DNA from: Polytrichum commune
Lineage: Eukaryota > Streptophyta > Polytrichopsida > Polytrichales > Polytrichaceae
DNA: 64,000 nucleotides
Direction of reading: 5' to 3'
NCBI GenBank assembly: GCA_950295325.1
Contig: OX485803.1
Coordinates: 29,760,001 to 29,824,000, forward strand
Shown here: piece by piece, positions 1,405 to 51,684 of the stretch
How positions within the stretch are numbered: position 1 is the first letter of the stretch
How the letters are laid out: each line of letters opens with the position of its first letter
Program-made: the position numbers and the translations under genes
Notes under the pieces: model-generated
The model's database searches: none
What the model saw: only the letters and a program-made list of their open reading frames with translations
Told to the model about the DNA's origin: nothing

Positions 1405-4192
1405 TCAACGGCGGAAGCTGCGAGGGATGGCGGCAGTGGACTCTTCCACTTTGAGGCGCACGGCTGTGTAAGCGGTGGCTCCCGAAACGCAGCCCAGGAC
1501 TGGCCCCAGTATGTAAATCCAGATGCTTTTGTAACTGTCGGCTGCAATTGCGGGACCTAGAGTGCGTACCGGGTTCATGGATCCGCCGGAAGTCGACCTG
1601 CAGTGGAGAATACAACACACATTGAAGTTGCATAAGCAGAGGCATGAGAATAAGAATAAGTTTCCTATACTCTGAAATGATCGATCTGAGACTCATATAG
1701 TTCTTAAGCATGCGTAAGGACGTTCTCTTTCTAAACGAGCTTCAAGAACAAATTTCCAAAGAATTGAGGTCCTGCTTCCATCTACCATCAAGCTTCAATT
1801 GAAAAGACATTGCCAAAGAATAATCCCGCCGAGTGCTTCTCTCCAAGATGCTTATCTAGGGAGAACACCCATGACTACACCACTTAAGACTGTTTCGGAG
1901 TCAATCGACTGTGATGACAAATACTGTGCGAAAGAATCAAACAAGTTGAGGTAAGGAGGGAAATGGCTTGAAAAGAGACGACATTACTTCACATTTGCAG
2001 GAAGAGACTTGCACCCGCGCCCTATGAGCTCAATGACACAACGTTATGAACGATCACATAATAATCTGAGTATTCAGAGGAAAGTTACAGAGCTGAAGTT
2101 GAAGAGTAAAGGGAGTAAACTTAAACGCCTACCCAGCAATCATGACGTTCATCATCACAACGGCGCCCACAGCAATGCCCGCTAGTTCCCCAACCTGAAA
2201 TATATCCCTGTCTCATGTGTCAAGAATGATGCATGTATCTCACAAGGATCTTTGATGAAACTTTGGGCAAATTAGTACTAAATTAACCTGGGGTATGATT
2301 GACCCTCTCAGATCATCAAAGAGCTAGTTAAATCCGAAAGAATTAGGTTCAGGACATCACTTCCATAAAGAGGTCTGTTGTGATGCATGCACATGTGTAT
2401 TGTAATTCAGGATTTTCGGTGATTGGATGGCAGACTTACGGCACGAGTGTCGGTTGCAACGGCGGTGACGACGAACATGAGGTTGAAGGAGATGATGAAC
2501 TCCAGTGCAAAAGAAGGCCAGTCGGTCCCTTCTGGAAAGGTGACGCCTCCATGCATGTAGGGATGAAAGATCCCCTTGAGTGCAAAAGAGGCTGCAATGG
2601 AACCTAAAACTTGTGCCGCAATGTAAAATGGCACCTGCGGACAACATCACACTTGAGCATGAATTCAACTTGTCTATGTATGCTTCCATAGTATATGCAC
2701 AGAATTGGAAGATCAATTACAAGAAGTTACACCAGGTTGCAGTGAGACACACGGTAGTACCTGAATCCAAGGAAAGTGGCGGAGTGATGCAAATGCGATG
2801 GTTATGCCGGGGTTGACATGGGCACCCGAAATGTGGCCGGTTGCAAAGATGACGATCATGATTGCCAATCCGGCGGTTGCTGCGTTGCCAACCAGTGTGA
2901 CGGAACCACTTGTCTTTTCGTTCACGATTGGAGTCGCCGTCGCTGCGAAGATCAGCACAAATGTGCCTATGAATTCCGCTGCAATCTGGTTACATGAGCA
3001 CTTCATCACTTGTGTTAGGAGCTTGTTGATGCATCCAAAGTTCTCCCTTCACAAGCTTTGAATCTCAGTGTTCATAGCTTCAGTGACAAATTCTTTGACC
3101 TTGGCAAGCTTGAGCCGTGTGTGTGGCAACCCTTTAAGGATATGATTTACCAGCAGTTAAATTACATTCATCTTGCTATCGGCTTCTCTCCGGTTTCAAG
3201 AGTACCTTGCCACTGTTAAATTACATCAATGATCTGAAATATATGATAATCTACATCAATGTTAGAGATTCTTTGAGGATCGATCAATCATACGATTGCT
3301 GCTCGTAGTAAGTGATTACTTCGTTTCTGGATGTTCAATTTCAGCGGAGTCCAAGGATTAGTGCATGCTGTCGTGTGTAGCAACCCCACAAGAACCTACC
3401 AGCATATCATGCATCTTGCTACCGAGGATTCTCTCTGATGGGAACACCTTCTTGGAAAAGGTCAATTACATCAATGGTGTTAAAGTTAATGACTACCATC
3501 GACATTATTCCTGTTTTTAATGGAAGAATCTGTGAGGATTGATGATGATAACATTGCTGCTGATAGTAATTACACCATCATGGCAACTTTGTTTCTGGAT
3601 CTTGGATTAGTGCATGGGTGAGTTGGGATGTTGTGTGTATATGTATATAGATAGCAACCCCATTATTAAGAACCTATCACGACCAGTTCATGCCTCAGAT
3701 TGCTACCGAAATTCCCTCTGATGGGAATGAATACCTTGAAAAAGGTCAATTACATGAATGATCATCGACATTATTTTTGTTAATGAAAAAATCTGTGAGG
3801 ATTGATGGTAATTATAGCATCATTCATGCAACTTTGTGTAATTTCTGAATGTCCCTGAATTTCAGCAGATTCGACGGAGGCGTTGGGGGCTAGGGATGTG
3901 GGCACAGATTGAGTACCTTGCGTTGGAGAGAGACTGTGGGCGGGTACACAACAGGAATGTGCGCGAACAGGCCATTGTCATGATTGCAGTACTCGGCCGG
4001 AAAGCATTTGTTGGCCTGCGGAGCGTTGCTGCGGGTGGAGAGCTGTCTGTCGACCTCAGCGATCTGCACAGACAGCTGACGCTCTGGGGGAAGAGCGAAC
4101 ACCACGGGGGTCATGTGCGGAGGAGGACCACCTCCAGCTGCGCAGGCTTGATCGAACATCACCATTTCGGGCTTCATCCCTGCTCCCGACAT
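1405..4192 (-). CDS. NIP-type aquaporin (NIP5/NIP6-like, putative boric acid channel), 5 exons, 316 aa
   Basis: Membrane channel of the nodulin-26-like intrinsic protein family. Exons (minus strand): 3917-4192, 2761-2985, 2440-2634, 2133-2194, 1405-1597. All introns are GT..AG and phases close to 317 codons including TGA. Exon 1 is a cytosolic N-tail with no membrane segment. Exon 2 begins the channel (AEFIGTF), carries GHISGAH and the first pore motif as Asn150-Pro151-Gly152. Exon 3 has the EFIISFNLMFVVTAVATDTR block; exon 5 has the second motif Asn261-Pro262-Val263-Arg264. The C-terminus ends RSFRR, as in the NIP5/6 group. Aligning to known NIPs, the aromatic/arginine filter reads Ala130, Ile in EFIISF, Gly258, Arg264 (A-I-G-R), the group II metalloid type. 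NPG instead of NPA/NPS is unusual. Start chosen at 4192 because it is the first ATG of the frame, has A at -3, and follows an A-rich leader without upstream ATG. Expected to import boric acid across the plasma membrane. Confidence 0.93.
3160..3885. repeat. Diverged tandem repeat in NIP intron 1
   Basis: Intron 1 (2986-3916) is built largely from about 2.5 diverged units of 265-285 bp. Anchors: CTCTGATGGGAA at 3433 and 3716; GTGAGGATTGATG-like motifs near 3270, 3531 and 3795; GCAACCCC near 3380 and 3655; TTTCTGGAT near 3324 and 3592. It therefore grew by local duplication. Confidence 0.75.
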
Positions 4193-7960: not shown

Positions 7961-8602
7961 CTTACAACACAATAGAGAGGACTCTTATCATATAATCATT
8001 CAATAAGAACTCAGACGTAACTTTGACAAATAATAAGATATTCATACGAGCTCCGAAATTTATGAGGATCATGGCTACGGGCACGATGATTTGGATTTGC
8101 TAATCATCTCGCACTAATCGCGCGCTCCATCATCTGCTGTACAGCGAGCTCACATAGCGCTTTCGTATTGCGCGGTGTAGGACGAAGTTATTAGCCAATC
8201 GCTTCTGTTCTGTAACCCAAGGTGCCTCAAGGATCAGGGTTTCTTTGCACTCGAATTTTGTCCTCAATTCATTGCGGCATACAGGTCACAGAAAATGATG
8301 GATTTTTTCTTACTCTCTGTGGTAGATTTCGCAGATTCTGAGATTTTCTCTGGAGCAAAACCATCTGAACTTGTCCATGGCACCTAATGTCTCTGTGGGA
8401 TGAGATCTATGTGACTTTGGTCTATTCCTACATGTTCTTTCCTTTAGAGTGCTCTTCGTTCCCCTCTTCGGGATACTGCTCCAGCTCCAAGGTTTGGAGA
8501 TGAAGAATCCGTCAACATTAAAGTCCCTTCGGACGATTATCTTGTGAGAGGAAGCCTATAGATTGGGTGAATCAGAATGGCATTCTCATCAAGTGCTTTC
8601 AC

Positions 8603-11600
8603 ATGAAATCCTCATCGATTATGCTTCGTCCTTTGCTCCTCACGAGGTTTCACCCTTCTGTTAGGGTTTCCAAGATGCAAACCCCCTCAGTGTTGTGCAA
8701 TTACACGCACTTTTGCAGCAAAACGTTCATCATCCCACAGCAATCTTCTTTCTTCTCCTCCTCCTTCTCTTTCCCCTTGAAGCTTTCTTCACTTTCTCCA
8801 GCATGCCTTCGGAGATATCCAGGACAGTCGTATGCATTGTCAGAATTTCCACCCCCTTCCAAATCCCTAGGGTTTGTGAAGACATTTCCTAAAGACATGG
8901 AAGAAGTGGTGAAACCATATCTTAAAGATATGGAAGAAGAAGTGGTGAACTCGTTTCCTAAACATGTGGAAGAAATGGTTAACTCATCTCCTAAACATAT
9001 GGAAATAGCGGTGAAACCGTATCCTAAAGACATGGAAGAAGTGGTGAAAGAGGCTACGGAGGTAGTGTATGATGGTACGCACAAAATTGGTCGCAGGAGA
9101 AGGAAACCACTTGTGAAGAAGTTTGTTCCTCCAACGAGGGTTTACTCGGATGCAGATGATGAAAGGTTCATGCGAGAAGCTTTGGTGGAGGCTGCGAGAG
9201 CTGCAGAGGCGGGTGAAGTGCCGGTGGGCGCTGTTCTTGTGCACAATAACAACATCATTGCGCGACACCATAATCGGTTAGTAAATACACTGTGCTATTT
9301 CAACATGCTTATTGAACATGAGTAGCCTTTGGGGATGAAAAGTTCTTCCCCAAATTAATGTACCTCTTCTGATTGCATTGACATAAGAGCGCGTCTCGAA
9401 TGCAATTGTTCTCTCAATAGTCTGCTTTCTAGGGTTTCTTGGGAGCAAAGCTGCATGCATACTCATCCCACCCACAAAGCTCAGCTGCTATCCAAGTCTG
9501 TATTGCCCACCCACCCCTACCCACCCCTGAAGAATTGAGTGACCGAGGGCTTTAGAGGTTGTCTTTCACAATTAATCTGTATGCGTTGTTCTTGTGCACA
9601 AGAACATCATAGCCTGACACCATAATTAGTGAGTAAAATTCTGCGCTATTTCAACGTGCTTATTGAACAAGAGCCAGCCTTAGGGATGGAAGTTCACAAT
9701 TTATGTAACCTTGTCATTGCATCGACATGATATAAGAGTGCGTGCATCTCCAACAATTACTGTAGAATTGCTCTCTCAAAAATCTGCTTTCTAGTTTTTT
9801 TTAGGGGTATTGCCTACAGATTACTGAGAGAGAAGCAGCTCTCTAAACCCATCCTCAAAAATCGAGTGGCTGAAGACCTTAGAGGTTGTCTCTGTCAATA
9901 AATCGCCCACTACTCTCCTCACGCTTATTGAATGTGAGTCAGGCTTGGAATGAAAGTTCAGAATTTGAGCAACTCTTCTCATTGCATCTGACATAAGAGC
10001 GCATGCAACACCAACATGTTATCCAAACCTGTATTGCCCACTGATTGTTGAGAGAGAGAGAGAGAGAGATGAGCATGCAGTATTGGCCTAAGCCACTTTG
10101 AAAGCCAATCATTCAGAGAATTATTTCAGATTAAATGTTGGACATGCTCTAAGGTCTCCAGTGCAAATGTTTCAACTCACAAAGGGTGATCTTGCATCAA
10201 GAAGTCTTCATTATCAACTTCTTATCACATTCTTTGTAACCGTCAACACTCTGTTTTGGAGATGCTATTGCCTTGGAATGGGACTTTCAGTAGAAGCATC
10301 AAAGCGTCAACACAACATACTTGCAGCTTTTATAAGGATTCCTTCAATCTGATCAACCACAGATAGGAAATTTTACTAACTTTACAGTGCCCCCATGTAA
10401 TTGCAGTTTCTGCAAAAAAATTGTCAGATTTGTAATGGTGTTTTGATGCCACAGTGGGTGAGCGCAGAGTGGAAACAGATGGTGACCCAACCTCCCACGC
10501 TGAGATGCTTTGCATTCGCAGTGCTGCTGCCCAATTAGGCGGCTGGCGACTCTCGGTACATTGAATTCATCCTATCATACCAAATTATTGTGTCAAGAGT
10601 TTGCCATCATGAGCTGTTGATTCTCATTGCCCTTCTTTGTGTAGTTGATTTCTGTGGGACATTAAAATTATAGGAGTGACCACAAATTACTAGTGGTCAG
10701 CATCAAATTACTCTCTTGGAGAAAATTATTTAAGAAATGGTAACAAGGAGTCACACTTCTGCTAATAGAGATGTCTAGGTGGTTTCCCCAGAGCTCCTCT
10801 GATAGATTTCAAAACCTTGGAAAACTATTCTGCAGCCAAACCATCTTTAGCAATCAGCACTACAATAAGAATGTCTAGACATGATATGTAGTGGTGAAAA
10901 TTTACAATCAGCTATCTCAATCCAGTCTCCTTGAAAGCTTTTCTCTCATTTCTTTTCCCATTTCTCAATTTGAGTCTCAAGACATGAGTGGCATTGATGC
11001 AGGATGTAACCCTATATGTGACACTTGAGCCATGCCCAATGTGTGCTGGAGCTATTCTGCAATCACGTGTGGGTGAGCTTGTCTGGGGCGCACGCAACTC
11101 ACTTCTAGGTGCAGATGGCAGTTGGATCAAGTATGTATTACACCTTCTCTTGTCATAGGAATCCATAGGAGGCACATGTGCCATTTCTGTGGTTTGGATA
11201 GAGTTATCCTTTTAACTCAATGGCACTTTTCGTTGCGAGTTGGTCCCCTATGATTTCCCATTGGTTGATTTGCATACATTACAATAAAAAATTTCCACTT
11301 GTGGTGCATGCTTGGAGGTAGTGTTCAAATTAAATGAAGAGCAACCTATTTCGGTGCATTGAAAGCCATACTCATTTAGCACCTCTTGGCATGCCAAAAT
11401 GAGTTTGACCCACAATGAACCATTTTAGAATGTTCTTTGTTCAAACCTCCACACTACCTCCAGGCATGCACTGCAAACTTACCAAACATGGAAGTTGTTG
11501 TATGCAAAACAACCAACTCCCGACCAAAGCCATGTAGAGTTAGAGGATAACTCTTAGAGTCGAGCCCACTTCTCTCTGTTCCCTTGTATCTTCTGGTTGC

Positions 11601-39937: not shown

Positions 39938-42900
39938 TCAGAAAGGTGGCTCTCCTTGTGGAGAACTTTGCCTTTGCCCTCCTGGAGTGCCTGGGGCCCC
40001 TGGCCTTGGAGTCCTGGGGTTGTCTGCTGCCAAGGGTTTCAACTCTGCCATAATATCGGAGAACGAGGGTCTTTGTCTTGGGTCCCTGCCAGTCATCCAA
40101 AAACAAAACCAAAAAAACAAAAATGCTTAACAAAACACCACACAAACATGAATCGATGTTCGGCAAGTAATAGAATTGGCACCAAACCCTCCTCCGGTTA
40201 AGATATGTGGGTGTTATTTGGTTCATTTTTCATGTTCTCCAACTTCTACCAATTAGATTTACAAAACATTACTTGTGTTGTGTTAGCAGATCTACAATGA
40301 AGCATCGTCAATTATTGAATTGAAAGTCAGACTTCCCAAGTGTTAGTAAAGGTTACTGCAACTACATGTTTGCTGATTCCTTAACCAAGTACATAGGTCC
40401 TCTCAATTATGTTCACTGTTGAGTGTAGAATATTTAACAAGATTTGAAGATGTAGTCCAATCTCTTTTAAACATGTGTATTTATCATGTTTGCTCTTTGA
40501 TCCTCACCTAACCACACATCAATCAAATATAGGTGTCCAATTAAGGTAACCAAATAGCACCCACAAACCTTATCACAGGCAGTTCTTCACATACATAACC
40601 ACAGTTCTTAAAAATGTCAAATAACTGGAATGATATAAAACCACAAGTCTACGAAAGCCAAAACCCAGTTAACTTTTGAAAGACCACCGGCTCTTTGCCA
40701 GTTCTTTGCCGGTTCTTTATTCTATTTAATTCTATACCAGGACCGGATTTTCAAAATCACAAAACCAGAGGTTATTAACAAAATCAAATACCCACCCAGC
40801 ATTGGTATGCATTCTCCATAACCTCTAGGATACTTGCAGATCATCATTGTAGCTCCTTCAGAAATACACTTTTATTTATATTATATACTCAAATTAGAGG
40901 ACATTTTACTGGTTAGTGAAACGAGGGAAAGCTGTCATAGTAAGCTGAGAATGAGCCACATACATGCGCCAACATGCTTGTATAATGTTTGCGATAGCTG
41001 AATCGACAGTCTCGGGAATGGTAAGCCTTCGATTTTGGAACCCTACAGCTCCCACAACCTGAACACAACAACAATCGTAGCACAACAATTACAACATAGA
41101 ATCATAACCAAGAGCTCCACTTAAGCCCTCGGACTTAAATATCCATGTCAATATAACCCTTGTGGGCCTATATATATGAACCATATTTAAACCATTCAGC
41201 ATTAATCTCTTATAACTCATCAACATCCACAAGATGAACCAAATTAATACAATATATATGATAATAACACAAATAAGCAAGAAAAACCATAAAAATTCAC
41301 ATCTCCCCTTCCACTCACAACTCCAAAATAGCAATGCCAATATTAGTGTCTTATTTTCCAAACCAAGTACAGATCATTAAGAGAGAGAAAATGTGCGCAT
41401 TTAGTGTTGAACAAAATTATACTACCTGAATAGGGTTCATGCCTGCCCATGGTTGCTGAAGAGTAGCAAGCTCCCATAAAATCACTCCAAAACTATAAAC
41501 ATCCGATCTGCCAAAATAGAGACCCAGTTCAGTACAGGACAAATCGCAATGTCAGAACACTCAAAATTGCTTTGTTCTGTAGACAGTTTATGCATGTTAT
41601 TTTGGTAAAAACCAATTCTCACACATGAGGTAGGCCAAGGTAAACCCTCTATAGGTATCAGCATGAAATCAGTATGATAAATAACCACAAGTGTAGGATT
41701 GATCAAAAAAACCCTCACTCCTTATAAAACAACATAAAGAGAACTCCAGATTGCCATTAATATTTGTATATATTTAAGCATATATGAGAATAGAAGAAAC
41801 ATACTTTTCATCAGAAAGCTCATTCCGAAGCACTTCTGGAGCCATCCACTCTGGCTGCAATGTCACAAGCATGCCCAAAATGAGGTTTTGAAAAAACCAC
41901 TTCAAGGTGTTAAGGGCTAACTGATGACAGCCAAAGTTCAGAATCTGATCAGAAATTGAACACAAAGCTACATGCCCTTGGAGCTAACAACACATTAGTC
42001 TTCCTGACAAGTAATTACTTAAGGTTCAATAAACCTAACACCACAATCTTAAATCAAAATTGTGTTAAGAAATTTACCGTTCCTGCACTTGACTTTGAAG
42101 TCAAAAAAGTGTTGTGTTTTTGCCGTGACAATCCAAAATCACAAACCTGAAAATCCCCAACTTCTCGTCTTAGCAAACAACACTTCAATACTTCCAAAAA
42201 CAAACTTCTGGAAAACTTAAGAAGCATAATCTAGGTTCACAAACAAGAAATCAAACACTACAATAAGGATAGCCAAAAGACTAACCTTCACAGTCCAGTT
42301 TTTATCAACCAGTAAATTAGGTGATTTTAAATCCCTATGTACTATCGGAGGTGACGAACGATGAAGATAATTCATTCCCTTCGCCTGAAGCAACAAGACA
42401 AGGAGCACCCATTAGGCAGTTTTTCAGGACTCCACCACTAATATGCAAGAAATTATCCTCATTACTTCTTCACAGGAAAATTTTCATTCTACCTCCACAT
42501 CAGAGCCATGACGTAACTCACAGATTCACATAGTTATTAAATGAGTAAACAGCAAGCATGTGAGAGACCTTTTATCATCCAAACTTACAACTGAATATAT
42601 TCCGACATGTGAGATTATTATTCACCCTTGATAATTTTTTAGCATCCATGACTGCAACCCTTAAAAGTTCAAGAGGTGTCACACAGAAAGGTTTTAAATT
42701 AATTGTTACTTTTAGATAAAAGTGTCAACAGAGACCCTATCTAAAATGACCCCATTTATCATATGCAATTTTCCAATACGAGCATACATATATGTAAATT
42801 CAATTATATGGAGATTTCAGCTCATGTAAGTGTTCTAGACTCAAATACATACCGCACATATCTAATCACCATTCTCGCACATGACATTTATATCCAAATC

Positions 42901-45900
42901 CTCTTTTTGTGCTATATATAAATTCAATATCATAAGTTGCATCAAATATTGTTTTGATTCTTGTGGGGTTTGAAACAAATATCACGATCCCATAAAGACA
43001 CACAAAAACAATTGCAATACTTACAACGTCCAGAGCCATGCGAATCCGGCGACGCTCATCCAGCTCTCGATTTGGTCTATGCAGCAGCCTATATAGACTT
43101 CCTCTGCAATGTTTTACATAGACACAAGATCAGCAATTTAGTGTCAGATTGCAATTATAACAAACAAAATCATTTTTAAGGTCACAACCAATCATGTCAC
43201 CATGGTCATAACCACATATTCAATCACTATCTTGCAAATAGAAGACATTCTGATCACTAATTGAAACCAAAACCCACCACAAAAACAAAGAGATAAAAGG
43301 CAACTCCTGGCAAGACCTGATCTGACAAATACCCGACCATCATCACTGTGTCAATAAGAAGCTTCACTAAACGTTTTGTGCACTTGCCATCAAATTTAAG
43401 ACAACGAACCTTGGGCAAAATTCAGTGACAATAGATAAGTTGGGAGGTACTGTGACTGCTCCCATAAAAAGAACAACATTAGGATGTCTTAGTCGCCTCA
43501 TTATAGCAACCTGTACCCCACAAAGAGATGGTTATTTACTAACATCAACCATCATAATTGCAGGATCATCAACTAATACACAATGTCCTTCAATGCCCCT
43601 CTTCAAAGGCATTATTCAAAAGAAAAGGGAATATGTCTAGATTTCAGGAAAACTTTGCTTTATGTAACTGAATTGATAAGTTCCCATTCCAACTAGAAAA
43701 TCTTACAGGAATGAAGCAGACAAACACATACCTCCCTCTTAAATTCATCCAAAGCCTCGACCTTGATATCTTGCTCTAAAAAGACCTTCACAGCCACATC
43801 CTGTACCCACCAGAAATAATCCGCAAATGTTATCCCTACAACTGGTAAGGACCAGGATTACCTCAAAATCACCAAATTCATCAAATTCATCTCAAGTTCA
43901 TCAATTCAACGGACATACTCACTGATCCCAAAAAATTACAGAGAAGAAATTATAGGGTAATATTCTTAAAGGACAGTAGTGAACCCTGACACTCACCGAA
44001 CCCTGCCAATCAGCACGATAGACCTTGCCATATGAACCTGCCACAATAAGATGCATATCATTTCACTGAAATTTTATATACATTTTAATACAATGACCCA
44101 CCAGGTATCAAACTTTGAGTTTTCATTCAACACCCCTTACCCACTGGTACATGAAAAAAGTTGATATATGCACAACACTGGTCCAAACCTCATGACCTTG
44201 GTAGCAAATAAAATTTCAATACTACACAACAACACAACATAAACATAAACATAAACATAAACATACCTTGCCCTATCCGGTCACCAATCATCAAATCCTC
44301 CCATAAAATCTCGAACTCCCTCGCAAACTCGCCCAACCGAGCTCTCCTAAGATTATTGTCTTCCTGCCCGCTCAAAGATCCCTTTTCATTCGGCCGTCCA
44401 CCCCCATCATTGTCACTGCTGTCGCCTGCATATCTTCCCCTATACCCATCCTGATTTTGACTTTTTTGTGACCCCTGATATTGTTGATCCCTGTCCCTCG
44501 GTTGGCTGTTCTCCTTTTCAAGTTCACGTTCTTGTGCAATTTGTGATATACTACTCGGATCAAAAGGTTGAGGTGTGAAATCAAAGGGCTGGGGAGGTGG
44601 CTGTCCTCGAGGCGAAGGAATTCCTCCTCTCCATGTATTTGGATAATTCTGGGCTCGTGGAGACCTAACTGCAGCCGCACCCTTGTCAGGGTCAAATGGC
44701 ACTGTCTTCACAGGAACCATGGCTCCAGCTGTATTATTACCAGACATAGATTTCGAAACTTTGGAGGCATTGGAAGTATTTCCGTTTTTAGCCCCTCCAG
44801 ACTCACCACGTGCCCAGTGGTTTACAGTGACGTTACTGCTATTAAATAGACTTGGCCTTTCAAACTGCAAGGGTGATGCAATCACAGCAGGAGGTGCAGC
44901 TAACCGAGAATCAGGGTTTGTAATTTGGCCGGGCTTGCTAAGAAGATCCACCATCCATTCCCTGGAAATTGATTGCACAACCCAAAATATGAGTTCCAGA
45001 AAAATGGGTTGCATCACAAGATAAATTTGAACTTCAGACTTCAAGCCATCAACCATGATGTGTCCCTCCCTTTGCCTAATTAAGGCTCCTACATCTACTG
45101 TAGTCAAATTCACCATTTCCATCAGTGGTGAACACCTGTAGGTGATAAGCAGGTTAAGCACAAATTAATTCAAATTTTGAGCAAATTGCCACATGTCACT
45201 TTTCTATGAGTCCCAGACCTCTACAAAAAAAAGTCCATGTGTAACTTCAAGAAATTAGCATTTTGGCACCAAAGTGCCGAACTTGCTTATCAACTTCAGT
45301 AATAATCGACAATCCTTTCATGACACTAATGACTTCCTTCTGCTAAAATGTACAGAAAGTATGTGTTATAGACCTCTCATCATTACACTTGATGACCACC
45401 ATGGCATCCTCCTCCTTCCCGCAGTAGGAACTCCCGCGAACAAGCCGACATGGAAGCCCAACACTATCGGCAATCCACTGTTCACATAAAAAGAGGAGAT
45501 TCAAAATTGTAAGCTCTCATATCAATTACTCCATATTTTGCATACTCACTTCATTTCCCCTAGGTTGCAAGTATTTCATATGCACACTGTTTTCAATCCA
45601 ATATAATATACTGTAACCTACAACATGAACCTCTGATGTTTAATATTGTGAGTTGGTGAATAGTGTGCAAAAACCCACAGTATTATCCCCAATGTTTTTG
45701 GTGTGGAAATATGCTCAATATGTGGCATACAATACACACCATCATGCAAGAAATATAATGTGCATCGCTACTTACACTTTCATGCCCCTGTGACATACCC
45801 ACCTCCTCCTATGTTGAAAGTCTTTCAAATGCACAATATTTCAATCTGATAGAAGTATTGTAACCTCCAAAGGTGGACCTCTAATGTTAAATATTGTGAG

Positions 45901-48900
45901 ATAATAAACAGTGTGCAGGCACCCACAGTATTATCCCCAATACTTTTGATGTGGAAATAAGCTTAACAATGTGGCCAACAGTAATTACCATTATCAATGT
46001 AGTAATCTATAAGACCCAGACAAAAGTAACATTTCTTGGTATTTTCTAGGTAATATTTTAGTCTAAAATGGTGACCTATAAAATTGCATACCTTGAACAG
46101 CAATGCTCGATGCCTACCCAGGCCAACATGTAGCCGTCCAATAGGAAGGACAAGGCTGCCCAACTGCTGTGTCAATTTGAAAGTATTTGAATTCCATGCA
46201 TCCACCAATTGTTCGTCTGTAAGCACAGGGCCTCCCATTTGACCTGCCACCAACTGCGCCAACTTTGCCGCCAGGTCCAAGACTTCTTGGGACATGTATG
46301 CAATTCCCACCGCCTTGTCTTCGAGTTCTCGTAGCTGCAAATCTGTGTTTCGATCCACCAAAACAACCTCAAAAACTGCATCTGTAGGGCTAACATTTCG
46401 GAGCGACTCGAGTGGAGGCATGCGTCCGAGTTCATTAGAATCAGTGCACATGGACCACACATAAGGGCTCATACCCCACACCTCATAAAATCCATCCTCG
46501 ATGCGATCCTCATAGCCCAAGCAGTTGCTCACCTGCAAAAAAAGAAAAAGAACAAACCAGCAGAAAATTAAACTTGTTTTGTACCTGAGGCAAAACTCTG
46601 GAGAAAGAAAGAAAGAAAGGAATATGACTCCAATGCTGTTAATGGCGTGGATTACGGGGCTGTTTCATTTTGAGTCAGTCTAAGTCTATATGTAACCCCA
46701 AAAGAGACATCACAAGAATTAGAGGGCCCCAAAGACTACTGCCCCTTTTCAAAGGTGAACACCTTGAACGGGCGCAGACAAGCCAGCCTACACCTATCTC
46801 CCCCCAGGTTAAGGCTTGGCTTTAAGCCACCCTTAACTTTGCAAACTTTTGGTGGACCATACGCACTATCACATTGATGAATCTTTTGGGCAATAGCGCA
46901 CGAAGTTGCATGAAGAAGACTTCTCAACCATTCTGCTCATGATGAAGTGATAGATGGATTTGGACAACATTCCAGTCATCCCTCAAAAATTCCACCAACA
47001 TTAAGTAAGCAGGCCTCATCAAACACCTATCTTAACCGGACCTCTATATTTGAGTGGCGGGTGGTAAGCTGTGGATCTAAGAACGGACACCAGAAAGGCA
47101 TCATGTGTTTAGAAGAGATTGGACTGTATGCTCAAAATTGCTTGACAACCATTCTAGGCTCTATAGTCAACATAATCCGGGGGCCCTATGTGGCCTTCTT
47201 ATGGCTCACTATTAGTGGCTTTGAGAAGTTGTAACAATTTAAGATTATTTCCAAAAATTTGATGGATTGATGATGGCTTCTTCAGATACATTTGCAGACG
47301 CACAGAAATTTCAGCTGTGCTAATTCAAGTACTATAAGTAGCAAACAGCAAAAAGGAACCAAATAAGACCCATCTACCTTAATTGTGATAAAGTACTCAC
47401 CCAATACCGATATGCAGTTGCTTCTACTTTGCTGACACCTGGCATCAAACCTTTGCTCCCATGAGGACCCCTTGTATTTGCAGATAAATCTGGATCATCA
47501 ACAGCCGCTGCCTCAGCTGCGACCCGCAATGCCAGAGCTAGCTGAAGTTGAAAGTCTTCTTCAGCTTGCTTTAAATTGATCCCCACTGCAGGCCCGCTCA
47601 ACGAGGTCGTTCTTAATGAGTTTGCCTCAACTGACCTTCCCTGTACTGAAGCTATGTTAGGGCTCGGTGACACAGAATTTTCTGTACTTGCACTGGACGT
47701 CCTCGAAAGCACCTGAGACAGTACCAGCAACTTCTATTTTTCAAGCTGACTACAGACGGACTTACAAGTGCCAAAACATATCTGCACACTTTTTTTCCTC
47801 TTTAAATTTCTCAGATTGAACAAACACGGTAAAAACATTCCAATCTGTACCACCTACATACAGGACTCTTTCGCTGCTCCAGAATCCTTGCTGCCACCCA
47901 CACCTCCATATCCCAAAAACTATTTCGAACCTCCAAAACTCCACACAACAAAGTAGATGATTCTTGTTCACTAAGAATATGACTATTATTACTCCAAATT
48001 TATGCGAACACCTCTATCTGTAGCAGCTTTAAAACCTCAATTCTTGTATCATTCAAATACAAACCCTTGTCTTCTTAAATGATATGCCAAGCGCTTCCAT
48101 ACAACCTAGAGCAGCTCCATTTACATTGTTCTCAACTATATCAACAAAGTCAGATTTACAAGTAAGGGTGGGTGCCTACTACAGCCCATTGCAGGGCAAC
48201 ACCTGTCCAGTACAGGACATAGTCATGCCATGGCAAGGTCATAAATTACAAACTAAGGGTATTGGATGCGATGAGCCTACCAGATGTTGTAGTAGGCACC
48301 CACCCTACCGAGGCTCAACAAGGGCAAGGTAGGTATCGGGTGCCTATTGTAAGTGATGCCAAAGCAACACGTTCCCATTATCAAACATAATGGTCTGATC
48401 ATGGCAAGGTCACCAATTACGGGTGATAATGTGCCTCCTCGTACCCAATCAAGAATACAGACGTCAAAAATGCTTAGCCTCACCACTACAACTTACTACA
48501 AGTCCAGTGGGAGGTTACCTGGAAGCCTGCAGATTCTTCATCTCCTCCATCTCTTCCCATCATATAGGGCCCAGCCCCATGACCAATCACGACAAGAGGA
48601 AGTGTCACGCCATCTGCACTTGAGTCATTCTGCAATGCATTATTTGCAACTAATCTATTGGATGACCACTGATCTCGTTCTTGAAGGAACTCATTCTCGT
48701 GTTCTGACTCCCATGAGTTTTGTCTTTCAGGTGTCTGTTTCGGGCTGGCGTTGGTTTCCTCTCCATCCCAACTACCAATGTGGAGTTTCCGCAAAAGTTG
48801 TTGAACAGAAGTTCGGCCCAATTTCTGTTCAACAGATTTCAGAGAGTTAAGACACACTACATAATGGAAGTAATGACTACAATAGAGTTATCCTTGAAGT

Positions 48901-51684
48901 GTCTTAAAAACTCTTGTTTTGGTAGAGAGTTTTGCTCCACTCTAGACAACTTGTAGCATTTAAGGTGTGTCCAAGTGGTGCCAGGACCCCCAGTTTTTGG
49001 TGAATTGAAGTGGAGGTGTCTTGACTTTGGCCAAGAGACACTTATGTAAAAATAAACACCTTGTCAAACTTTCGAGAACATCAGTTTAGGTGCCTTCAAA
49101 AGTGTGTCATGAAATTCATTTTTACATAACTGTCTTTTGGCCAAAGTCAATTGCCTTTCCTTCATTTCACCACAATTGGGGGTCCAACACCACTTGGATG
49201 CTCACAAGTTGTCAATAGTGGGGCAAAACTCCCTACTGAAACATGAGTTTTTGAGGGACTTTAACAATAACTCTAATGACATAAGCATAACACTCAGATT
49301 CTCTTTCTTAACTTGTCTCTGCCGAGGAAGGTGTCTTACCAGAAGGTTTCTCCCAGTGGCCTCCCCATCAGGTGGTGGAGGCTCCAATAATAATTTTTGA
49401 CCTGAATGTGTCCCATCCAAAACATTATTATCGTCGATTACTCTACCAAGTCCTTCTGAATAGCTTCTACCTACAACTTGTGGCATGCTGTTATAAGATT
49501 CAGAAGAGAATGAGATTCCAATAATACTCTTCTCGTCGTCAACTAAGGGCTTCTGAGCCACCACTGTGTTCAAAATATAGCCATCTCTACGTAGACTCGG
49601 GTACGGCCCTGTCCATGACTCCCCCTTCCCAACACGCACTAGAATATCCTTTGCAGTCTTCTTCAAATTAGAAGGTATCAAAAACTCTAATACGTTCAAC
49701 CCTAGGACCTCCTCTGCATTCCACTGATAGAATTGCTCTGCTGCTCGGTTCCTGCACCCACCAACACATCCAAGAAATGTCATATGGGTTAGTCCATGCC
49801 ACCAAGTACGATTGAAATAAGCACACAAAATATATGATATAGTGTGGCCCACACTATTCAATATCAACCCGCATTGATTGTCTTGTAAACACTGGGTGGC
49901 AACCAGAGAAGGTGTCACATAACACTTGGTGCTGTATGACAAGTTACAAAGACCACTCTATTATTTGCTGTGTTCAGCTCCTGTTCAAAACTCTTCAGAA
50001 TATGAGCACCACTCGACATAGGAGAAGCAGTACAAAGAAATGATTGACTGTGATGTGGATAGGTATACTGTGTAGAATCATCCCCCTGAGTGATTTTAAA
50101 GTTCCACAAATCCCAAAATTCTGTAATCTTATACATATGGCCAGAAACTCAAAGCAGAAACGGAGCTTCTTCTCCCCAGTCAAATAGCTCTCACAGGACA
50201 TCCTCCAATCCCTTCCCGAAAAATAGTAGACACAATTTTCGCTAGGAGCAGGTGAGTCCATGTGTCTGATACTACAGGAATCTTACAACTCTCAAAATTC
50301 CTCCCTAATCTCTCTCTCTTTCACTTCTGCAAAAGCTCCTTGAAGTAACACTAATTAGAGACAACTCTTCCCATCATCTGAATTAGGGCACCATCATAAT
50401 TACCCAAAACTCCTGATTGTAAGTGGCATTGACAAAGCAAACAAAAAATCCATCACATCTCCGCCAAAGACATGAAACGTCTGACTGACAAAGTTTGTGA
50501 TTTCTAAAAACCTGTGGGAACTGGGAACTCGTACTACGAGGTTAGGGAGAAAAAGGCTGCAACTATTACCGAGGTAGGTAATCAATGAGGTGGGAGGATA
50601 GGATAAAGCTAACTCAGTCTTGAAGACTGTCGCTATCTTCCTCACCCATTTTCCTCATTCAAGTCTTCTGCGGAGTTGTGGGTTGAGTCGGACCATGCAA
50701 CCACCATATCCAACATACAACAACAATAATACCACTTGCTCCAGTCTCCACCACAACACTAGTACAAATACAGGACTCTCTCACAGGCAGGAAAGTGGCC
50801 AACTCCAAATGGAAACCTACAGACAGACAGGTAATTAACGTACTTCTCCATCTTCTCCTCCTTCAATTTTTGTTTCCGGCCAACTGTGACCATTTCAAGT
50901 TGGTCACCATCATCAAATGAGCTTCTTCGAAGAATTTGAAGGTGACCAACTTGTCGAGAAAGTGTGCCAACTGATGACCTCCACTAGATAATTGACGATA
51001 TTTCTCTCTTCTCCAACGGTGACCATTTCAAGTTGGTCAACATCAAATGAGCTTCTTGGAAGCATTTGGGGATGACCAACTTATCATCTAACCAAAAAAC
51101 CAGGACTCGCTCAAACACTGCAAAGTGGCCAACTGATGACCACACCACTAGATAAAATTAATAAAGTTGATGGCTGTATCTCTTCTCCGATAGCCGGTCA
51201 TCGTCATATGAGCTTCTTCGAATAGCTCAATCGAATTTGGGGTCACCCCAACCCGCCGCCGCCGACGACGACGACGACAACAACAACAACAACAGCCAAA
51301 TTTCAAGCGGGCAAGCCATCCTGTGACAGATAGGAGTTCTTCTGCATCATCATCATCATCATCATCATAAGTCGTCGTCGTCGTCATCCCTATCAACTTC
51401 CACATGTGCACCTGGAATTCATTCTCACAACTTCCCATCCCACATAACCCAAACCATCATTTCATTACCTCCCACATCCCACTCCCCTCAAACCACTCGC
51501 GCCCATGTCACCACTCCTCACACACAGCCTAGACTTCTCCTTACCAGCTGGTGATATTGCCACGTAGATCCGTGAGCACGTAAGGCTGGTTGAGGCTACC
51601 GCTCCTGCCGAACGATCCCCCATACGTTACAGTCCGCCCATACTGCTGCTGCGTCTGCTGCTGCTGCGGTGTCTGCAACGGCAT
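39938..51684 (-). CDS. ANR: PAS-EDR-Raf-like MAPKKK (ANR/ARK type), 17 exons, 1080 aa
   Basis: Ser/Thr kinase of the B-type Raf-like MAPKKKs. In the moss Physcomitrium the ANR/ARK protein activates SnRK2 in abscisic acid and drought signalling and is required for desiccation tolerance. Exons (minus): 51545-51684, 49340-49751, 48519-48824, 47401-47712, 46092-46532, 45374-45477, 44267-44961, 43997-44037, 43732-43800, 43410-43510, 43025-43103, 42286-42384, 42078-42146, 41805-41854, 41426-41507, 40964-41058, 39938-40085. All junctions are GT/AG; the total is exactly 1081 codons. Residues 1-20: Gln-rich. About 33-140: PAS ([28 protein letters not shown]). About 333-590: EDR1 domain ([49 protein letters not shown]). 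About 590-785: disordered Pro/Ser linker. About 790-1055: kinase with GQGSYGKV, Lys822, HRD Asp918, DFG Asp936, activation loop Ser952-Ser953, APE 961-963. All catalytic residues present. Exon 3 is the least certain. Confidence 0.93.
40206..40565 (-). mobile_element. MITE family A, full copy A5, in kinase intron 16
   Basis: 360 bp with 18-bp terminal inverted repeats TGTGGGTGTTATTTGGTT (40206-40223) and AACCAAATAGCACCCACA (40548-40565), one mismatch. The interior matches A2, A7 and A8 in reverse orientation. No clear target-site duplication is visible. Located wholly within the intron 40086-40963. Confidence 0.8.
45552..45972. repeat. Tandem pair, 248-bp period, in kinase intron 5
   Basis: CCCACAGTATTATCCCCAAT at 45674 and 45922; TTTAATATTGTGAG or TTAAATATTGTGAG and GATGTGGAAAT or GGTGTGGAAAT keep the same spacing. 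Lies in the intron 45478-46091. Confidence 0.85.
46990..47185 (+). mobile_element. MITE family A, partial copy A6, in kinase intron 4
   Basis: CTTAACCGGACCTCTATATT, TGAGTGGCGGGTGG, GGACACCAGAAAGGCATCAT, GTGTTTAGAAGAGATTGGAC and CTATAGTCAACATAATC follow the family consensus in plus orientation. Right terminal repeat lost. Confidence 0.6.
48165..48306. mobile_element. 142-bp TIR element in kinase intron 3, with a diverged second copy beside it
   Basis: Perfect 19-bp inverted ends AGGGTGGGTGCCTACTACA (48165-48183) and its complement (48288-48306). From about 48336 a related sequence repeats GGGTGCCTA, CATGGCAAGGTCA..AATTAC and ends near the GTACCC at 48440, a decayed second copy. Both lie within the intron 47713-48518. 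Confidence 0.7.
48883..49275. mobile_element. Long foldback element in kinase intron 2
   Basis: Arms 48883-49053 and 49118-49275 are inverted copies of each other (about 160 bp each, roughly 75-80% alike by eye), separated by a 64-bp loop. Anchors: TAGAGTTAT / ATAACTCTA at the outer ends, AGTTTTGC.CCACT, GACAACTTGT, CCAAGTGGTG, TTGACTTTGGCCAA, TTATGTAAAAAT at the inner ends. Unspliced RNA would form a long hairpin. Entirely within the intron 48825-49339. Confidence 0.8.
49835..49950. repeat. Dispersed repeat shared with the 57-58 kb array, kinase intron 1
   Basis: ATTGTCTTGTAAACACTGGG, GTGGCAACCAGAGAAGG, CACTTGGTGCTGTATGACAA match 58395-58470 in order. A reverse-orientation relative occurs near 57180-57235. 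Confidence 0.6.
50790..51260. repeat. Tandem triplication in kinase intron 1
   Basis: GAGCTTCTT at about 50921, 51050 and 51209. The unit also contains CATTTCAAGTTGGTCA .. TGACCAACTT (an inverted repeat), AGTGGCCAACTGATGACC and CCACTAGATAA. Period about 129-159 bp. Confidence 0.75.
51262..51375. repeat. Trinucleotide repeats in kinase intron 1
   Basis: CGC/CGA/ACA tract at 51262-51296, (ATC)n at 51342-51369 and GTCGTC at 51370-51385. The ORFs seen through them are artefacts of low complexity. Confidence 0.85.

Follow-up and report, generated by a model that had tools for sequence, protein, structure and literature searches.

A probable ARK/ANR-type PAS-EDR1-kinase gene in a moss genome and a sister gene with no detected PAS domain

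Do a PAS domain, an EDR1 domain and a Raf-like kinase, read as one frame in the first-pass annotation, form a single gene of the moss ARK/ANR type, and does this gene have relatives in its own genome? The window, i.e. the whole stretch of 64,000 nucleotides that was analysed, was re-examined, and the host genome (407.8 Mb, 64 contigs) was searched. Its seven large contigs (77.9, 70.3, 59.2, 59.1, 52.9, 44.7 and 42.1 Mb; sum 406.1 Mb) are taken as seven chromosomes; contig 8 has 0.15 Mb.

Rebuilding of the gene from the minus strand returned the same model as before, a single 1080-codon frame over 17 exons. The 3243 nt are translated into 1080 residues and one stop codon, with the start at 51684 and the stop at 39938; all introns have GT...AG ends (16/16) and matching phases. 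The following features were assigned:

39938..51684, minus strand: probable ARK/ANR-type gene, 17 exons, CDS 3243 nt, 1080 aa (spliced model, 16/16 GT-AG introns)
51545..51684, minus strand: exon 1, start codon and N-terminal portion of the PAS domain, aa 1-46 (spliced model, 5iu1 match)
49340..49751, minus strand: exon 2, remainder of the PAS domain, aa 47-184 (spliced model, Pfam, 5iu1 match)
48519..48824, minus strand: exon 3, linker, aa 185-286 (spliced model, sister-gene match)
47401..47712, minus strand: exon 4, linker and EDR1 start, aa 287-390 (spliced model, Pfam)
46092..46532, minus strand: exon 5, EDR1 core, aa 391-537 (spliced model, Pfam, EDR1 family search)
45374..45477, minus strand: exon 6, EDR1, aa 538-571 (spliced model, EDR1 family search)
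44267..44961, minus strand: exon 7, EDR1 end, linker and kinase start, aa 572-803 (spliced model, Pfam)
43997..44037, minus strand: exon 8, kinase glycine loop (spliced model)
43732..43800, minus strand: exon 9, kinase with Lys822 (spliced model)
43410..43510, minus strand: exon 10, kinase (spliced model)
43025..43103, minus strand: exon 11, kinase (spliced model)
42286..42384, minus strand: exon 12, kinase catalytic loop with Asp918 (spliced model)
42078..42146, minus strand: exon 13, DFG Asp936 and Ser952-Ser953 (spliced model)
41805..41854, minus strand: exon 14, PEWMAPE segment (spliced model)
41426..41507, minus strand: exon 15, kinase (spliced model)
40964..41058, minus strand: exon 16, kinase (spliced model)
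39938..40085, minus strand: exon 17, kinase end and stop codon (spliced model)

The join of exons 1 and 2 is supported, since the match to the PAS sequence of PDB entry 5iu1 continues without a break across the junction (ITSW before it, NRAAEQ after it). Exons 3-17 are also present in a paralog, with equal phases and, in 13/15 cases, equal lengths. The start ATG has an in-frame stop 45 bases upstream with no Met in between; the model is weakest at the 5' end, which may include an additional upstream exon. Intron 2 contains an inverted repeat (window 49021-49150; 55-base arms, 82% complementary) that looks like a small transposable element, and intron 5 two direct 93-base copies that are 83% alike (window 45626-45966). 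Elsewhere in the window, an exon of a major intrinsic protein (aquaporin) gene was found on the minus strand (2713-3045; Pfam MIP, E 2.8e-18), and an exon of a cytidine-deaminase-like gene, with a repeated segment ahead of the domain, on the plus strand (8522-9322); the latter gene is possibly a tRNA adenosine deaminase.

Pfam analysis of the spliced frame revealed, above cut-off, a PAS domain at residues 31-127 (E 2.5e-10), an EDR1 domain at 382-585 (E 2.7e-71) and a kinase domain at 797-1047 (E 8.8e-70), while a second PAS model, PAS_9, stayed under its Pfam cut-off. Thus, one predicted protein carries the three modules in ARK/ANR order, as the first-pass annotation had read them. These E-values and the spliced model rule out a chance open frame, and the EDR1 match excludes the window gene from the B2-Rafs, which have PAS and kinase without EDR1. 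The residues named in the first-pass annotation were all found in place: Lys822 in AVKVF, Asp918 in HRDLKSPN, Asp936 in DFGL, and the pair Ser952-Ser953 in SSAGTPEWMAPE.

A search of all PDB sequences with the PAS segment gave two distinct matches with E no higher than 0.001. The top one (E 1.2e-35; 54% identity over 113 alignment columns) was 5iu1, listed without organism as 'CTR1-like protein', which we take to be the PAS structure of Physcomitrium patens ANR. Trp47 and Trp93, two of the three Trp residues of the PAS region, align with Trp in 5iu1. A genome search with the 5iu1 PAS ranked the window gene first, so that from both directions its PAS is of the ARK/ANR kind.

The kinase segment was less discriminating. 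With E 1e-40 as the limit, 128 distinct PDB sequences were found, and among the best 60 of these Arabidopsis CTR1 came first (E 1.4e-122). No other plant B3-Raf was found in the best 60 of 128, hence this list cannot separate ARK, EDR1-like and CTR1-like kinases. In P. patens ARK, ABA induces autophosphorylation at Ser1029, and the D995N change disrupts the kinase, as reported in PMC12290401. Asp918 and Ser952 are both offset by 77 from P. patens Asp995 and Ser1029; the window protein has an intact kinase and an activation-loop serine equivalent to Ser1029, which makes the earlier guess, that regulatory phosphorylation would fall on Ser952-Ser953, a sound one. By alignment, the same Asp-to-Ser spacing occurs in Arabidopsis CTR1; it is not ARK-specific and supports the residue assignment, not the family.

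The window gene is, on its sequence, very probably a complete ARK/ANR-type B3 Raf-like kinase gene of a moss-like plant. Orthology to ARK/ANR is supported by the PAS match, the architecture and a weak tree. The first-pass reading as moss ANR/ARK type fits the module order, the PAS-5iu1 match and a kinase lying outside the CTR1 group, the tree being the weak part of this evidence. P. patens ARK/ANR/CTR1L is reported to have the same PAS-EDR1-kinase order (PMC9370073), with its catalytic Asp and activation-loop Ser in register with those found here (PMC12290401). Marchantia polymorpha MpARK1 likewise has the three modules in one protein and shares a clade with P. patens ARK, but it is described as 1294 aa long with the PAS at 178-290 (PMC9370073), against 1080 aa and 31-127 in the window protein. 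Since the three-module kinase is known from P. patens and Marchantia, the window gene joins a known family, in a lineage where such a gene is expected; that a moss has it is the normal case. The first-pass annotation had this module set absent from seed plants; the loss itself stands, but not its extent, as PMC7367143 describes the loss of the trimodular kinase for vascular plants.

A single ARK gene had been noted previously; contig 2 carries a further gene of the ARK type, which was overlooked. An EDR1 family search of the genome (13 candidates scored) gave 10 matches at six places, two of which are the window gene and a close sister at C2:46752903-46763338. Others of the six are C2:14.35M, C2:45.75M, where a CTR1-like gene lies, and C1:62.1M, which has a more distant kinase. 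An EDR1 fragment resembling this CTR1-like gene, with a stop in frame, lies at C3:13358467-13358673 and is probably a pseudogene piece. The sister gene consists of 15 consecutive exons that match exons 3-17, with GT-AG ends at 14/14 introns, and encodes 925 residues with a single terminal stop. It is 69.9% identical to the window protein overall and 90.7% in the kinase, exon lengths are the same in 13/15, and the catalytic residues are kept. The NG86 estimates (dN 0.22, dS 1.71 over 889 codons; dN 0.11, dS 1.40 over 285 kinase codons) indicate an old duplication, undated because dS is near saturation, with both copies under constraint.

In the whole genome, the window PAS as query found its own two exons only (3 candidates scored). 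In a control, the 5iu1 PAS query detected window exon 2 at 51% identity, and a similarly diverged PAS exon would therefore probably be detected; the only other match, with E 0.32, lies where two PAS-family matches are located as well. The PAS family gave 12 matches in the genome, none near C2:46.76M, in a search where the PAS of the window gene itself scored no better than E 0.002. Closer to the sister, a six-frame profile search with filters off was run on C2:46755001-46805000 (open pieces of at least 15 residues), which takes in up to about 42 kb ahead of exon 3 of the sister. The best E was 3.6, and a PAS concealed near the sister was rejected on this basis.

The sister's exon 3 is preceded by an AG acceptor and the frame is shut by stops upstream, which points to an upstream exon, present or past. 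An extra copy of this exon lies about 8 kb upstream (C2:46770672-46771266; 99% over 702 and 535 bases), interrupted by an insertion with stops. By its near identity it is a recent partial duplication, and this broken second copy shows that the 5' end of the sister has been rearranged. Apart from the gene, comparison of the window with C2:46735001-46805000 gave only short pieces among matches above 60 bits, taken for dispersed repeats. We put at about even the chance that the PAS exons disappeared from one of the two ARK-type genes after the old duplication, its EDR1 and kinase parts being kept under constraint. Otherwise the sister may have a 5' part that escaped detection, or it may be a gene of the MpARK2/3 type. 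Like the sister, Marchantia MpARK2 and MpARK3 have EDR1 and kinase and no PAS. They are reported to be related to Arabidopsis B3-Rafs (PMC9370073), whereas the sister groups with the window gene. A search of the literature on the family, whose coverage stopped short of most subscription journals, yielded no description of a moss gene of the ARK clade that lacks a PAS.

With two such genes present, the role of main ABA kinase could fall to the sister, the window gene having diverged or become specialised. The two kinases, each of them intact, are very similar, the P. patens ark mutant is reported to regain its ABA response with PAS-less B3-Rafs, and a special role in gemma dormancy is described for MpARK1 (PMC9370073). 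However, neither copy is set apart from the other, since the dN and dS values speak for constraint and the catalytic residues are present in both; we regard such a division of roles as unlikely, at roughly one chance in four.

It is very improbable that the window gene is a CTR1-type ethylene-signalling kinase instead of an ARK. Arabidopsis CTR1, a B3-Raf kinase not known to have a PAS domain, does top the PDB kinase matches, with 69.1% identity to the window kinase over 265 columns and no other plant B3 kinase in the best 60 of 128; the P. patens protein, too, is named CTR1-like. However, the genome contains a separate CTR1-like gene with an EDR1 domain, spanning C2:45.752-45.761M, which is the slightly better match: its kinase, assembled by eye, shares 72.1% identity with Arabidopsis CTR1 and 71.2% with the window gene, so that among the compared EDR1-domain kinases of this genome the window gene, at 69.1%, is not the closest to CTR1. 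A tree was calculated from seven kinase domains, namely those of the window gene, the sister, the CTR1-like gene, Arabidopsis CTR1, EDR1, SIS8 and B-Raf, the last three entered by hand. The window gene and the sister paired at support 85, EDR1 and SIS8 at 83, and the CTR1-like gene and Arabidopsis CTR1 at 75, apart from the window gene; the node uniting ARK-like and EDR-like kinases had a support of only 42 in this set with three hand-entered sequences. The tree agrees with the three subgroups named in PMC6340887, but it is weak evidence because the seven domains include neither the P. patens ARK kinase nor a B2-Raf. The CTR1 question is also partly one of naming, as P. patens ARK/CTR1L is tied to ABA and submergence responses (PMC12290401). 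With a closer gene that groups with CTR1 in the same genome, CTR1 identity was rejected for the window gene.

That the PAS exons and the EDR1-kinase exons are two adjacent genes, fused into a trimodular frame by annotation, is even less credible and was rejected: the joining does rest on a predicted model, and the sister has exons 3-17 with no PAS detected, but the exon 2-3 join is supported by matching phase, GT-AG ends and an intron of only 515 bases, the same order occurs in one protein in P. patens ARK and MpARK1 (PMC9370073), and the genome-wide PAS searches found no other PAS of the ARK kind.

The remaining Raf-like kinases were approached by a kinase search (140/1064 candidates scored), which missed the window gene and its sister because introns split them, and so cannot count Raf genes. 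No B2-Raf was seen in this search or in the PAS-family search, both of which are weak; a genome without B2-Raf genes is weakly supported, and P. patens is likewise reported to be without them. The PAS-family match at C7:2.579M, whose frame is presumably LOV-like by its motif, was rejected as a B2-Raf, as no match to the window protein turned up in the surrounding 30 kb. The 10 kb around C6:24.81M also gave none. The other three places with multiple PAS matches (C6:27.83M, C2:39.76M and C5:32.78M) look phytochrome-like, judged by pattern only.

ARK acts within the ABA pathway, of which further components were sought. The PYR1 query returned three PYL-like genes at 46-52% identity (3 matches, 4 candidates scored). 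The SnRK2 query listed 127 kinase matches (150/355 candidates scored), of which the pieces at C4:49.26M stood out with 70-89% identity. The SnRK2 at C4:49.26M encodes the SQPKS motif, which is phosphorylated by ARK in the activation loop of P. patens SnRK2 (PMC6340887). At the gene level, retention of the ABA pathway in this organism is supported by these PYL-like and SnRK2 genes, in agreement with the first-pass annotation, which had proposed that the ABA/dehydration pathway is kept. By analogy with P. patens, the window kinase would be expected to activate subclass III SnRK2 on ABA.

The course of activation can be sketched from the P. patens work, from which the order of steps, autophosphorylation, targets and histidine kinase link are expected to carry over. 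ABA or osmotic stress would be the input, and ETR-type histidine kinases would act on EDR1 together with the region ahead of it. Ser952 in the activation loop would then be autophosphorylated, the active kinase would phosphorylate the SQPKS serines of subclass III SnRK2, and the phosphorylated SnRK2 would switch on protective genes. The PAS domain probably contributes weak dimerisation and modulation and would not be essential. According to PMC9370073, deletion of the ARK N-terminus up to a domain next to EDR1 abolished the histidine kinase interaction, whereas deletion up to the PAS alone left both this interaction and the ABA response unaffected. The same source describes an ABA-insensitive mutant with a Ser to Phe change in EDR1, and restoration of the ABA response of the P. 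patens ark mutant by PAS-less MpARK2 and, less so, MpARK3. Given this rescue, the three-module structure alone does not predict desiccation tolerance, to which the first-pass annotation had linked it.

With the window gene, a known kinase of desiccation signalling has a well-resolved gene model in a further plant, very probably a moss. In P. patens, ARK is the only B3-Raf according to PMC9370073 and PMC12290401, while this genome adds the sister and the CTR1-like gene; these two genes qualify the statement of a single B3-Raf in mosses, which is itself based on P. patens. The apparently PAS-less sister and the window gene, both present in one genome, would offer a natural pair for testing the role of the PAS domain. 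If the sister did lose its PAS exons, this loss within the bryophyte ARK clade would parallel the absence of a PAS from the B3-Rafs of vascular plants, and the two copies would allow one to ask what the PAS module contributes.
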